Shown here in pieces: positions 3,992 through 54,469 of a stretch of DNA of 64,000 nucleotides. The stretch's first letter is position 1; each line of letters starts with the position of its first letter. Made by a program: the position numbers and the translations under genes. The DNA is from Carboxydocella thermautotrophica (lineage in GTDB: Bacteria > Bacillota > GCA-003054495 > Carboxydocellales > Carboxydocellaceae). The DNA lies in the NCBI GenBank assembly GCA_003054495.1, contig CP028514.1, positions 1,217,501 through 1,281,500 on the forward strand, read 5' to 3'. The notes under the pieces were generated by a model, which saw only the letters and a list, made by a program, of their open reading frames with translations, ran no database searches and had not been told where the DNA came from.

Positions 3992-4025
3992 GATAAGGAG
4001 TTGAGGAGAGTTGAGTAGAGTCAAG
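3982..4025 (+). promoter_or_regulatory. Putative second TRAP site, over the trpD ribosome site and start
   Basis: GAG triplets lie at 3998, 4003, 4008, 4013 and 4018, each separated by exactly 2 nt, with AAG in register at 4023. Outlying GAG (3982) and TAG (3989) are off register. The core covers the trpD Shine-Dalgarno (AAGGAG, 3995-4000) and the TTG start at 4011. A protein bound here would block trpD translation directly, as TRAP does at trpG in Bacillus subtilis. It has fewer repeats than the other two arrays. Confidence 0.65.
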
Positions 4026-10175: not shown

Positions 10176-10205
10176 TTTACAAAATTTATGGGATTATGGT
10201 AAGAT
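10176..10205 (+). promoter_or_regulatory. Probable sigma-A promoter of the hisC-aroF-tyrA-aroA operon
   Basis: TTTACA (10176-10181) and TAAGAT (10200-10205) lie 18 bp apart, directly after the stop of the upstream DAHP synthase. Transcription would start near 10212 and give a leader of about 175 nt before hisC. That leader holds GG repeats and a terminator. Confidence 0.65.
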
Positions 10206-10235
10206 GAAGCAAAGTAAGTTTCAATGTAGTTGCTG

Positions 10236-10292
10236 GGTAGGATGGTAGACTGTAAAGATTTTACTAGAACTGGTAGGAAGGCAGGTAGGAGG
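10236..10292 (+). repeat. GGNN 4-nt periodic repeats in the hisC leader
   Basis: GG dinucleotides recur every 4 nt: 10236, 10240 and 10244 in a first block, then 10272, 10276, 10280, 10284 and 10288 in a second. A last GG is at 10291. The two blocks share one register (28 nt apart) and are separated by a small inverted repeat, GTAAAGATTTTAC (10252-10264). GGTAGGAG (10284-10291) can pair with CTCCTATC (10336-10343) in the downstream terminator. Similar runs precede the second DAHP synthase and pheA. The binding factor is unknown. Confidence 0.7.
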
Positions 10293-10330
10293 AAAACAAT
10301 AACGCAGATGGGGACATTCCGTCCATCAGC

Positions 10331-10358
10331 GGGCACTCCTATCAGGGGTGCCCTTTTT
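10331..10358 (+). terminator. Strong intrinsic terminator in the hisC leader (attenuator)
   Basis: GGGCACTCCT (10331-10340) and AGGGGTGCCC (10344-10353) form a 10-bp stem with a 3-nt loop, followed by TTTTT. It lies about 30 nt before the hisC start and after the promoter, so it must be bypassed for expression. That makes it an attenuator rather than an end-of-operon terminator. No T-box sequence or obvious leader peptide is visible. Confidence 0.85.
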
Positions 10359-10388
10359 GCCAAATTTCTACAGAGGGGGGAAGAGAGT

Positions 10389-11471
10389 GTGGTGCAGGCA
10401 AGGAAATCTCTAGAAAAAATTAAAGTCTATGTGCCGGGAAAACCAATTGAAGAAGTTCAGCGGGAGCTAGGACTTACCCGGGTCGCCAAACTGGCTTCCA
10501 ACGAAAATCCGGTCGGGCCTTCACCAAAGGCTATTGCAGCCATGGTGGATCAAGCCGGCAAAACCAATTTATATCCGGATGGAAATGGTTATTATCTGAA
10601 GGAGGCCCTGGCTAAACACTGGCAGGTATCCATTGAACAGATCGCTTTAGGCAATGGTTCCGATGAACTGATTCAGCTGCTGGCTCTGGCTTATGTGGAA
10701 GCAGGGGATGAAGTGATTATGGCCAAACCGTCATTTCCCCGCTATGAGCCTGTGGTCAGGATGATGGAGGGAGTGCCGGTTGAAATACCTTTGACGGCTG
10801 ATTGGCGACATGACCTACCCGCTATGGCTCAGGCGATTACTGAAAAAACCAGGATGATTTTTCTCTGCAATCCCAATAATCCCACCGGAACTATGGTGAC
10901 CAGAGAGGAAGTAGCTGCCTTTATGGCCAGGGTTCCGGCAGGAGTGCTGGTAGTTTTCGATGAAGCTTATTATGAATATGTCAATAATGAAGAGTATCCC
11001 GATGGCCTGGACTATTTGCGCCAGGGCAGGGATGTGATTGTTTTGCGCACCTTCTCCAAAATCTATGGACTGGCAGGATTGCGGGTGGGTTATGCTTTAA
11101 CCAAACCGGAAATCGTGCAAAACCTGGAACGGGTTAGGCCGCCTTTTAATGTGAATGCTCTGGCCCAGGCGGCTGCCCGGGCAGCTCTGGCAGATCAGGT
11201 CCACCTGGAAAGGGTACGGGAGTTAAATGCCCAGGGATTACAGTTTTTCTACACGGCCCTGGAGAAGCTGGGATTGGAATACGTACCTTCCTATACCAAT
11301 TTTGTTCTGATTAATGTAGAGCGTCCGGCTGCTGAAGTATTTCAGCAGCTCTTGCGCAAAGGCTATATAGTGCGGGATGTAGGGCTGGGAACCTGGTTGC
11401 GGGTCACAGTAGGATTGCCGGAGGAAAATCAAGGCTTTATCCAGGCTTTAAGGGAAGTAATTAATAGCTAA
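10389..11471 (+). CDS. hisC: Histidinol-phosphate / aromatic aminotransferase
   Basis: About 360 residues; PLP class I/II aminotransferase of the HisC group. The motifs NPNNPTGT, FDEAYYEY and the PLP lysine in TFSKIYGLAGLRVGY are present. GTG at 10389 (or 10392) follows GGGGGG; the reading frame stays open further upstream, but that part is the regulatory leader. Its place ahead of DAHP synthase, tyrA and aroA suggests it makes phenylalanine and tyrosine from their keto acids. HisC enzymes often do both reactions, so a role in histidine synthesis cannot be excluded. No other his gene is present. Confidence 0.88.
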   Translation: MVQARKSLEKIKVYVPGKPIEEVQRELGLTRVAKLASNENPVGPSPKAIAAMVDQAGKTNLYPDGNGYYLKEALAKHWQVSIEQIALGNGSDELIQLLALAYVEAGDEVIMAKPSFPRYEPVVRMMEGVPVEIPLTADWRHDLPAMAQAITEKTRMIFLCNPNNPTGTMVTREEVAAFMARVPAGVLVVFDEAYYEYVNNEEYPDGLDYLRQGRDVIVLRTFSKIYGLAGLRVGYALTKPEIVQNLERVRPPFNVNALAQAAARAALADQVHLERVRELNAQGLQFFYTALEKLGLEYVPSYTNFVLINVERPAAEVFQQLLRKGYIVRDVGLGTWLRVTVGLPEENQGFIQALREVINS

Positions 11472-11487
11472 TTGTTACTAAATAGCA

Positions 11488-11504
11488 GGATGGGAGGATG
11501 GTAG
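11488..11504 (+). repeat. GGNN repeats over the ribosome site of the second DAHP synthase
   Basis: GG lies at 11488, 11492, 11496 and 11500, an exact 4-nt period, with a further G in register at 11504. The run includes the Shine-Dalgarno GGGAGG for the ATG at 11507. It resembles the hisC-leader and pheA runs. A short purine-rich stretch at a ribosome site could arise by chance, so this copy alone is weak evidence. Confidence 0.5.
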
Positions 11505-11506
11505 TG

Positions 11507-12523
11507 ATGATCGTTGTGTTAACTGCCCAGGCAGGAGAGCAGGAAAAAAATCAGGTTATTGAAATGATCGAACGAGCAGGACTAAGGGTGCATCTGTCCC
11601 AGGGGATTGAACGAACCATCCTGGGCATCATCGGGGACCGGGAACTGGCAGCCAGTCTGGCTCTGGAGGCTTTACCCCAGGTAGAACGAGTTGTACCAAT
11701 TTTACGGCCTTATAAACTGGCCAGCCGGGATTTTCATCCCCAGGATACGGTAGTAACGGTAGGGGATGTCCAGATTGGCGGAGGAAAAGTGCAGATTATT
11801 GCCGGCCCCTGTGCGGTGGAAGGGGAGGAGCAGATTTTAACGGCAGCTCGACTGGCCAAAGCCGCCGGAGCCAGTATTTTGCGCGGGGGAGCTTATAAAC
11901 CTCGTACTAGCCCCTACTCCTTCCAGGGCATGGAAGAAGAGGGATTAAAATTACTGGCCCGAGCGCGAGCGGAAACCGGCCTGCCGGTGGCTACGGAAGT
12001 GGTGGATCCTCGCTCTCTGGAGCTGGTGGCCGAATATGCCGATATTCTGCAGATCGGAGCCCGCAATATGCAAAACTTCCTGCTTCTGAAGGAGGTAGCC
12101 AGGGCTGGTAAGCCGGTTATATTAAAACGGGGGATGAGTGCTACCGTTGAAGAATGGCTGCTGGCAGCGGAATATATTTTATCTGCCGGCAACTTCCAGG
12201 TTATTCTCTGTGAACGCGGTATCCGTACCTTTGAGACTTCTACCCGTAATACCCTGGATTTGAATGCGGTAGCTCTTGCTCGTCAACTTTCCCATTTGCC
12301 CATTCTGGTGGATCCCAGCCATGGTACAGGTAAATGGAAACTGGTAACACCAATGGCGCTGGCAGGACTGGCAGCAGGTGCTGATGGGTTAATGATTGAA
12401 ATGCATCCTAATCCGAGTGAGGCTGTCTCCGACGGACCCCAGTCCCTGACTCCGGAAAATTTTGCCCATCTGGTAGAACAAGTAAGAAAACTGGCTATAG
12501 CACTGGGAAAAGAGCTGGGGTGA
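11507..12523 (+). CDS. aroF: DAHP synthase with N-terminal ferredoxin-like regulatory domain
   Basis: About 338 residues; same reaction as the paralogue at 9346. The C-terminal barrel shows [42 protein letters not shown] and DPSHGTGK. The first 70 or so residues (MIVVLTAQAGEQ to ERVVPILRPYK) form an added domain like the ferredoxin-like domain of the Thermotoga maritima enzyme, where it mediates tyrosine/phenylalanine inhibition. ATG at 11507 is preferred, 9 nt after GGGAGG. It sits between hisC and tyrA, so control by Phe/Tyr is the natural inference. The two copies are clearly related along the barrel. Confidence 0.92.
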   Translation: MIVVLTAQAGEQEKNQVIEMIERAGLRVHLSQGIERTILGIIGDRELAASLALEALPQVERVVPILRPYKLASRDFHPQDTVVTVGDVQIGGGKVQIIAGPCAVEGEEQILTAARLAKAAGASILRGGAYKPRTSPYSFQGMEEEGLKLLARARAETGLPVATEVVDPRSLELVAEYADILQIGARNMQNFLLLKEVARAGKPVILKRGMSATVEEWLLAAEYILSAGNFQVILCERGIRTFETSTRNTLDLNAVALARQLSHLPILVDPSHGTGKWKLVTPMALAGLAAGADGLMIEMHPNPSEAVSDGPQSLTPENFAHLVEQVRKLAIALGKELG

Positions 12524-53556: not shown

Positions 53557-53575
53557 TATCATTATTCAGTCTGCA

Positions 53576-53601
53576 GGTTGGCAGGACGGTAGGTTAGGAG
53601 G
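53576..53601 (+). repeat. GGNN 4-nt periodic repeats before pheA
   Basis: GG lies at 53576, 53580, 53584, 53588 and 53592, five in exact 4-nt period, followed by GG at 53597 and 53600. The run ends in the pheA Shine-Dalgarno (AGGAGGA), 7 nt before the ATG. The same pattern stands in front of hisC and the second DAHP synthase, also genes toward Phe/Tyr. No other gene in the window was seen with five such units. Confidence 0.65.
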
Positions 53602-53608
53602 AGAAAAA

Positions 53609-54469
53609 ATGCGAGTAGGGGTTCTAGGTCCAGAAGGTACATTTTCACAAATGGCTGCCGAACAATACGCCAGGCGCCGGCATCTGAATTTTCAATTCTT
53701 TTATTTTCCAGACCTTGCCCGGGTAATGAAAGCTCTGGTACAGGATCAGGTGGAACTGGCGATTGTACCGGTGGAAAATTCCCAGGAAGGTTCTTTATCT
53801 ACTACCCTGGATTTTCTTTTATGGCAGGATGGAGTGCAAATCCAGGATGAAGAAGTTCTGGCTGTCCGGCACTGGCTCTGGGGTAAGCCTGGCACCAGAC
53901 TAGACCAAATTTCCGCTGTGCTTTCTCATCATCAGGCCCTGGCCCAATGTCAGGGCTGGCTTAATCGCCGCCTTCCCCAGGCGATTAAGGTGCTAACTAC
54001 CAGTACCAGTGAAGCCTGTGCGAAAGTGGCAAAATCAGAAGAAAGTCTGGCAGCTATTGCGGCGCCGGTAGCAGGGGCTGCCTATGGTCTGGAAGCACTG
54101 GCGGAAGATCTCCAGGATAATAAGAATAACGCTACCCGCTTCCTGGTGCTGGGAAAAGGAAGTCAGAGTTTAAGACCTCAGCCGGGGGAAAAGTGGAAAA
54201 CTTCCATAGCTTTCGGGACCCCGCATGAACCAGGGGCATTATATCGAGCTCTTGAGCCGTTGGCCAGGCAGGGTTTGAATTTGTGCAAAATTGAGTCCCG
54301 GCCGGCCAAGCGCAAACTGGGGGAATATATTTTTCTGGTGGATATTGAAGGCTGTAGTCTGGAACCAGGCCCGGTTTCCCAGGGGCTAATAGAATTAATG
54401 GGTCGAGCAGCCTGGGTGAAAATGCTTGGCTGCTATCCGGCTGCTCCAGGGGGTGGAGAAGATGAATGA
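53609..54469 (+). CDS. pheA: Prephenate dehydratase
   Basis: 286 residues. It converts prephenate to phenylpyruvate for phenylalanine. VLGPEGTFSQMAAEQY at the start, PVENSQEGSLSTTLDFL and the NNATRFLVLGKG block belong to the catalytic domain. A C-terminal ACT domain (TSIAFGTPHEPGALYRALEPLARQGLNLCKIESRP) carries the ESRP phenylalanine-binding motif, so feedback inhibition is likely. GGNN repeats overlap its ribosome site. It overlaps the chorismate mutase gene by 8 bases. Confidence 0.95.
   Translation: MRVGVLGPEGTFSQMAAEQYARRRHLNFQFFYFPDLARVMKALVQDQVELAIVPVENSQEGSLSTTLDFLLWQDGVQIQDEEVLAVRHWLWGKPGTRLDQISAVLSHHQALAQCQGWLNRRLPQAIKVLTTSTSEACAKVAKSEESLAAIAAPVAGAAYGLEALAEDLQDNKNNATRFLVLGKGSQSLRPQPGEKWKTSIAFGTPHEPGALYRALEPLARQGLNLCKIESRPAKRKLGEYIFLVDIEGCSLEPGPVSQGLIELMGRAAWVKMLGCYPAAPGGGEDE

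Follow-up and report, generated by a model that had tools for sequence, protein, structure and literature searches.

Eight-nucleotide NAG repeats in the hisC leader of Carboxydocella thermautotrophica: candidate RNA sites of a HutP-family protein in aromatic amino acid biosynthesis

What controls transcription into the hisC gene of Carboxydocella thermautotrophica, and what part do the regularly spaced GG dinucleotides of its leader play? The gene order at this locus is rRNA operon, then trpEGDCFBA-aroF1-hisC-aroF2-tyrA-aroA; all coordinates, unless a contig is named, refer to the window, the whole 64,000-nucleotide stretch of DNA analysed. A promoter with the sequence TTTACA-18-TAAGAT and an extended −10 element (TG before the −10) is predicted from its consensus match only at 10176..10205 (+). 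It is followed by GG dinucleotides at 10236, 10240, 10244, 10272, 10276, 10280, 10284 and 10288, all in a single 4-nt register, with GGTAGGA at both 10236 and 10272. An intrinsic terminator, GGGCACTCCTATCAGGGGTGCCC followed by TTTTT, occupies 10331..10358 (+) and contains a 10-bp hairpin (10331-10353; predicted −17.4 kcal/mol). The first gene past this attenuator encodes a hisC-type aminotransferase (10389..11471, +), which starts at GTG 10389 or 10392. The leader is also open in the hisC frame for 53 codons (10230-10388), with no evidence for translation. The first-pass annotation of this DNA had reported the GG runs, the promoter, the terminator and a complementarity between GGTAGGAG (10284-10291) and CTCCTATC (10336-10343), and direct reading finds all of them in place. 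Within 10206-10330, the best 4-nt register holds nine GG against a shuffle mean of 4.9, a value that 5000 dinucleotide shuffles never matched. The same stretch holds three copies of AGNNNGGNAG (p ~4e-4, shuffle test).

Our structure predictions support the proposal that this leader is an attenuator with an antiterminator derived from the repeats. The predicted fold of a transcript ending at 10343 (10212-10343) forms exactly the 8-bp helix 10284-10291:10336-10343, in which 10284..10291 (+) would be the 5′ strand of the antiterminator; once the 3′ arm of the terminator is added, the terminator replaces this helix. The pairing is by itself unexceptional, being equalled by 21 of 100 shuffles (z −0.72), since CTCCT will find a partner in any G-rich leader; the same kind of leader versus terminator-arm duplex test gives a weak mean over 36 leaders (z −0.9). 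T-box leaders of Firmicutes likewise control aromatic amino acid genes by alternative terminator and antiterminator structures. In contrast to them, the hisC leader matches neither the T-box nor any other Rfam family in a covariance-model search, lacks a specifier architecture and is ~140 nt long. A leader peptide is no better an explanation. The sole candidate, a Trp-rich reading frame at 10204-10248 (MKQSKFQCSCWVGW), was rejected because the predicted −10 and its ATG (10204) overlap and the ATG comes before the point where transcription is expected to start. The earlier statement that neither mechanism accounts for this leader thus holds.

The repeat unit itself has to be revised. The first-pass annotation described a 4-nt GGNN unit, whereas the conserved unit of the aligned leaders is GGYAGNAY, 8 nt long, so that one NAG triplet recurs per 8 nt; the 4-nt GG register is a by-product. 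In the C. thermautotrophica hisC leader, these triplets form two clusters 24 nt apart, each with two clear NAG at period 8. Cluster 1 (GGTAGGATGGTAG, 10236..10248, +) has UAG at 10238 and 10246; cluster 2 (GGTAGGAAGGCAGGTAGGAGG, 10272..10292, +) has UAG at 10274 and CAG at 10282, and its 3′ end is GGTAGGAG. We compared 30 hisC loci with upstream sequence from the genomes of relatives and from this genome, aligning the unit by eye. The leaders of G018, from a different family, and of G001, from the same order, have the layout seen here, with GG/NAG repeats ending in AGGAG and then a terminator that starts with a variant of GGCACTCCT. Three clusters are present in the hisC leader of the Bacillota MAG L073, where the terminator arm CGCCCTTATACC lies opposite GGTAGGG, and the hisC leader of the Syntrophomonas MAG L055 has the repeats with no obvious terminator. 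In the leaders of relatives, the GG periodicity is only partly kept as a 4-nt register, while the 8-nt repeat is kept.

A broader search, with the pattern GGNAGNAYGGNAGNAYGG in 399 Bacillota genomes, provided 60 matches that were examined with their flanks. The pattern is strict and misses the sites of C. thermautotrophica itself; its reversed-pattern control was not independent, since it also matches real sites. When the searched pattern itself is left aside, the upstream 75 nt contain 14 recurrences of GNAG at lag 8 (0.9 expected) and one at lag 4 (1.1 expected), and no lag other than 8 is comparable. Of 38 other leaders, 27 continue with a third unit after the pattern, and 12 contain a second cluster on the upstream side (1.1 expected). 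These data also bear on two-tier G-quadruplexes, raised at first pass as one way to restore termination, and on the reading that such RNA structures of (GGNN)n antagonise the terminator. The five GG of cluster 2 in the hisC leader, spaced by 4 nt, would suit such a structure. However, a G after NAG, which the second GG requires, is found in only 48 of 76 units (63%), the second GG is absent from the L224 leader (GGTAGAATGGTAGTATGG), and the recurrence is at 8 and not 4 nt; we thus regard G-quadruplexes as extremely improbable. In a scan of the genome, GGNNGGNNGGNNGGNNGG is present 12 times, and the GG pattern alone is therefore not diagnostic. What is diagnostic is the chain of NAG triplets with its 8-nt period, taken together with its conservation and the genes around it.

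Conservation extends to the relation between repeats and terminator. AGGAG closes the last unit, and its counterpart, CTCC, occurs in the terminator arm of 22 of 32 leaders versus 7 of 34 other hairpins (p 1.5e-4). The placement of cluster 2 relative to the terminator is the same in 32 leaders. Among the genes that follow, aromatic functions strongly predominate. The 51 first genes downstream of GGNAGNAYGGNAGNAYGG include 19 DAHP synthases, eight HutP proteins (with aroH as the next gene, where checked), six Na+ symporters, five AMP-binding ligases, two periplasmic binding proteins and one each of hisC-type aminotransferase, tyrA, aroK and aroE. With respect to aro and hutP genes, tested by tblastn, the motif is in sense orientation in 33 cases and in antisense in none. 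Repeats in direct orientation close to a promoter could also serve, in the leader region, as an operator for a DNA-binding protein. The sense-only orientation, the presence of sites within operons, at ribosome binding sites and with no obvious promoter, and the constant relation of the repeats to a terminator with a complementary arm all argue against a DNA operator, which we consider very unlikely.

Some of these contexts deserve mention in their own right. In family f30 (L190, L192, L193, L198 and L200), repeats precede an AMP-binding acyl-CoA ligase that is perhaps involved in aryl-acid activation. In L205, L208, L210, L227, L228, L231 and L246 they lie near or over the starts of SSF and SNF sodium symporters, which are candidate aromatic amino acid transporters. 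A long tandem array of 8-nt GG[AC]AGAAY units in G023 (C1:2057113-2057250; 25 pattern matches) is probably unrelated to this system; the genome has no HutP of the clade described below.

Additional sites in C. thermautotrophica lie shortly ahead of translation starts and cover, or extend into, the ribosome binding sites. In the hisC-aroF2 gap, GCAGGATGGGAGGATGGTAG (11485..11505, +) has NAG at 11486, 11494 and 11502, a period of exactly 8, and covers the Shine-Dalgarno region of aroF2 (ATG 11507). This gene (11507..12523, +; start inferred from relatives beginning with MIVV or MIIV) encodes a DAHP synthase with a ferredoxin-like domain. Far downstream, GCAGGTTGGCAGGACGGTAGGTTAGGAGG (53572..53602, +), with NAG at 53574, 53582 and 53590 and again a period of exactly 8, extends into the Shine-Dalgarno sequence of the prephenate dehydratase gene pheA (53609..54469, +; translation MRVGVLGPEGTFSQ...). 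The aroF2 and pheA sites, one cluster of three NAG each, are the only places in the 64-kb window where two AGNNNGGNAG matches lie 8 nt apart. The segment 53478-53550, directly after groEL, carries a strong promoter match (TTGACA-18-TAAAAT). A terminator hairpin of 12 bp follows within ~20 nt, with the pheA repeats next. Among 20 places examined from a one-mismatch search of the whole genome, the aroK-aroB junction alone was convincing, with GGCAGGATGGCAGG before the aroB start (G000:C1:228713-228740; L256); the others were in coding sequence, antisense or in unrelated contexts.

Which factor might read these repeats? The logic proposed in the first-pass annotation was that of TRAP, the regulator of the B. 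subtilis trp operon, and the likeness is real: repeats overlap an antiterminator, whose occupation by protein frees the terminator to form; translation is blocked as well, where the same protein covers a ribosome binding site; and the recognized elements are NAG triplets. The repeats could then simply be unusual TRAP sites with long spacers, placing hisC, aroF2 and pheA under control by Trp. TRAP binds UAG and GAG, its gene mtrB is present in this genome (G000:C1:683717), and TRAP occurs in 31 of 34 genomes with context-checked sites. However, TRAP requires ~11 G/UAG repeats with 2-3 nt spacers (PMC3913778). Nothing like its 9-11 repeats is seen here; the hisC leader has two or three NAG at period 8 with a conserved GG between them, the NAG are mostly 8-11 nt apart, and CAG is common (18 of 76 units). 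Clear TRAP-like sites of GAG/UAG repeats exist in the trpE leader (1919-1957) and at the trpD start (3998-4020); that the trp genes have such ordinary sites means that two motifs coexist in this genome. Finally, G041, G155 and G346, and likewise G005, have sites and HutP but no TRAP. A long-spacer TRAP site is thus unlikely, and we reject TRAP as the regulator because of the spacing and of the TRAP-less genomes carrying sites. What the sequences do support is TRAP-like logic with another protein, and the protein, its ring and its ligand would differ.

A candidate for this protein is provided by the HutP family, members of which bind clusters of three NAG repeats (PMC7430163). The earlier remark that no described regulator fits was thus correct for the spacing, which is new, but not for the binder. 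HutP (PF09021) was found in all 34 other genomes with context-checked sites in which it was searched. Across the 399 Bacillota genomes, a distinct clade of HutP is present in 228, over half. It occurs in 85 of 106 genomes with the pattern versus 143 of 293 without (p 1e-8), and in 49 of 55 genomes for a YAG-YAG pattern; as these 143 pattern-less genomes also have the clade protein, the phylum-wide association is moderate. No HutP was found in G018, which has the leader and whose genome is 82% complete. A search of the C. thermautotrophica assembly (G000) gave no match either, but the 5 kb upstream of the window are N (masked). The conspecific assembly G061 encodes a 144-aa HutP (PF09021, E 1.3e-77), and the stretch directly next to this gene has 100% identity with G000 at the border of the masked part. 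In G000, hutP is therefore expected to precede the rRNA operon and to lie at about C1:1212723-1213157, some 4.3 kb from the upstream edge of the window. Leaders of hutP-aroH carry the repeats, which suggests autoregulation; G001 and G004 are among the genomes in which the motif lies shortly before hutP. A few hundred bases separate hutP from the hisC gene downstream of it in several genomes (G040, G013 and G033; L284-L286), which fits a hutP-aroH-hisC gene order. We also observed HutP-like domains fused to two CBS domains in proteins of ~260 aa (L280, 177-959, +; L281, 581-1363, −), possibly nucleotide-sensing relatives of HutP.

The clade combines a predicted HutP fold with an altered His/metal site. 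Sequence searches from them did not reach HutP in the PDB, which was reached through a canonical relative by sequence and through the predicted fold: the AlphaFold model of G061 HutP (pLDDT 87.5) matches HutP 1vea (E 1.2e-9, TM 0.77). The canonical relatives L276-L278 retain the HALxHATMEA-type helix of 1wmq. In the clade, EGAVAGATREA replaces the SHALYHATMEA helix, and Gly takes the place of each histidine without exception in 11 sequences; His73 and His77 of known HutP align to the invariant Gly82 and Gly86. In B. subtilis HutP, these two histidines hold the metal and the L-histidine ligand. With both absent, the clade probably senses something other than histidine, and the membership of the regulon points to Phe and/or Tyr. 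To our knowledge, HutP is known from one catabolic operon, and our search of the open literature (subscription journals lay outside it) retrieved no paper linking HutP to aromatic amino acids or chorismate mutase.

Taken together, the repeats, their conservation and gene context, their sense-only orientation, the association with HutP and the HutP fold make it probable that the repeats are RNA sites of a HutP-family protein, of a clade distinct from histidine-responsive HutP, and mediate Phe/Tyr-dependent termination or translation block. When the ligand is scarce, HutP would leave the repeats free, and pairing of the last repeat with the terminator's 5′ arm would allow transcription of hisC-aroF2-tyrA-aroA. 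When it is plentiful, a HutP hexamer could occupy the NAG clusters and cover the antiterminator strand, so that the terminator would form and transcription end. At aroF2, pheA and aroB, with clusters over the ribosome binding site, binding would block translation.

RNA binding and the direction of control are thus what we infer, as is the ligand, and the direction would be opposite to known HutP action. HutP prevents terminator formation (PMC7430163), a family precedent for the alternative that HutP binds these repeats as an antiterminator; it would then activate expression, as it does at the hut operon of B. subtilis, and its ligand might for instance be a pathway intermediate. However, a protein on the repeats should hide the antiterminator strand, as the last repeat is that strand, and binding should favour termination. 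Sites over ribosome binding sites also fit repression, and the targets are biosynthetic and uptake genes; activation by HutP therefore seems improbable. Termination and translation block both fit end-product repression, as with TRAP.

The comparison with hut thus shows kinship and divergence. The two systems share a PF09021 protein with a fold match to 1vea and 1wmq, and clusters of NAG at a fixed period, often two of them, in a leader beside an intrinsic terminator. In the hut operon, which serves histidine degradation and is controlled by antitermination, the NAG spacer is 4 nt (period 7). Here, by contrast, the spacer is 5 nt, the period is 8 nt with a conserved GG, and Gly replaces the two histidines of the His/metal site. 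The genes belong to aromatic amino acid biosynthesis, hutP lies beside aroH, further sites cover ribosome binding sites, and control would be repressive.

These observations suggest a widespread and apparently undescribed system, found in dozens of related bacteria, that silences the aromatic pathway when its products are abundant. On balance, we lean towards a wider reading in which the HutP clade of these 228 genomes is a Phe/Tyr sensor that represses an aromatic regulon through 8-nt GGYAGNAY repeats, as a counterpart of TRAP built on a different protein. The regulon would comprise aroF, aroB, aroE/K, aroH, hisC, tyrA, pheA and transporters, with termination at attenuators and translation block elsewhere. 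Trp-specific genes on one side, and common and Phe/Tyr genes on the other, would then be controlled through two different repeat codes. If true, this would assign a function to a large and mostly unannotated protein family, explain the control of DAHP synthase in many Clostridia-type bacteria, and add a second multi-triplet RNA-binding attenuator, of different protein architecture, beside TRAP. The substrates of predicted targets such as the symporters, acyl-CoA ligases and ABC binding proteins could also be guessed from their membership of the regulon.
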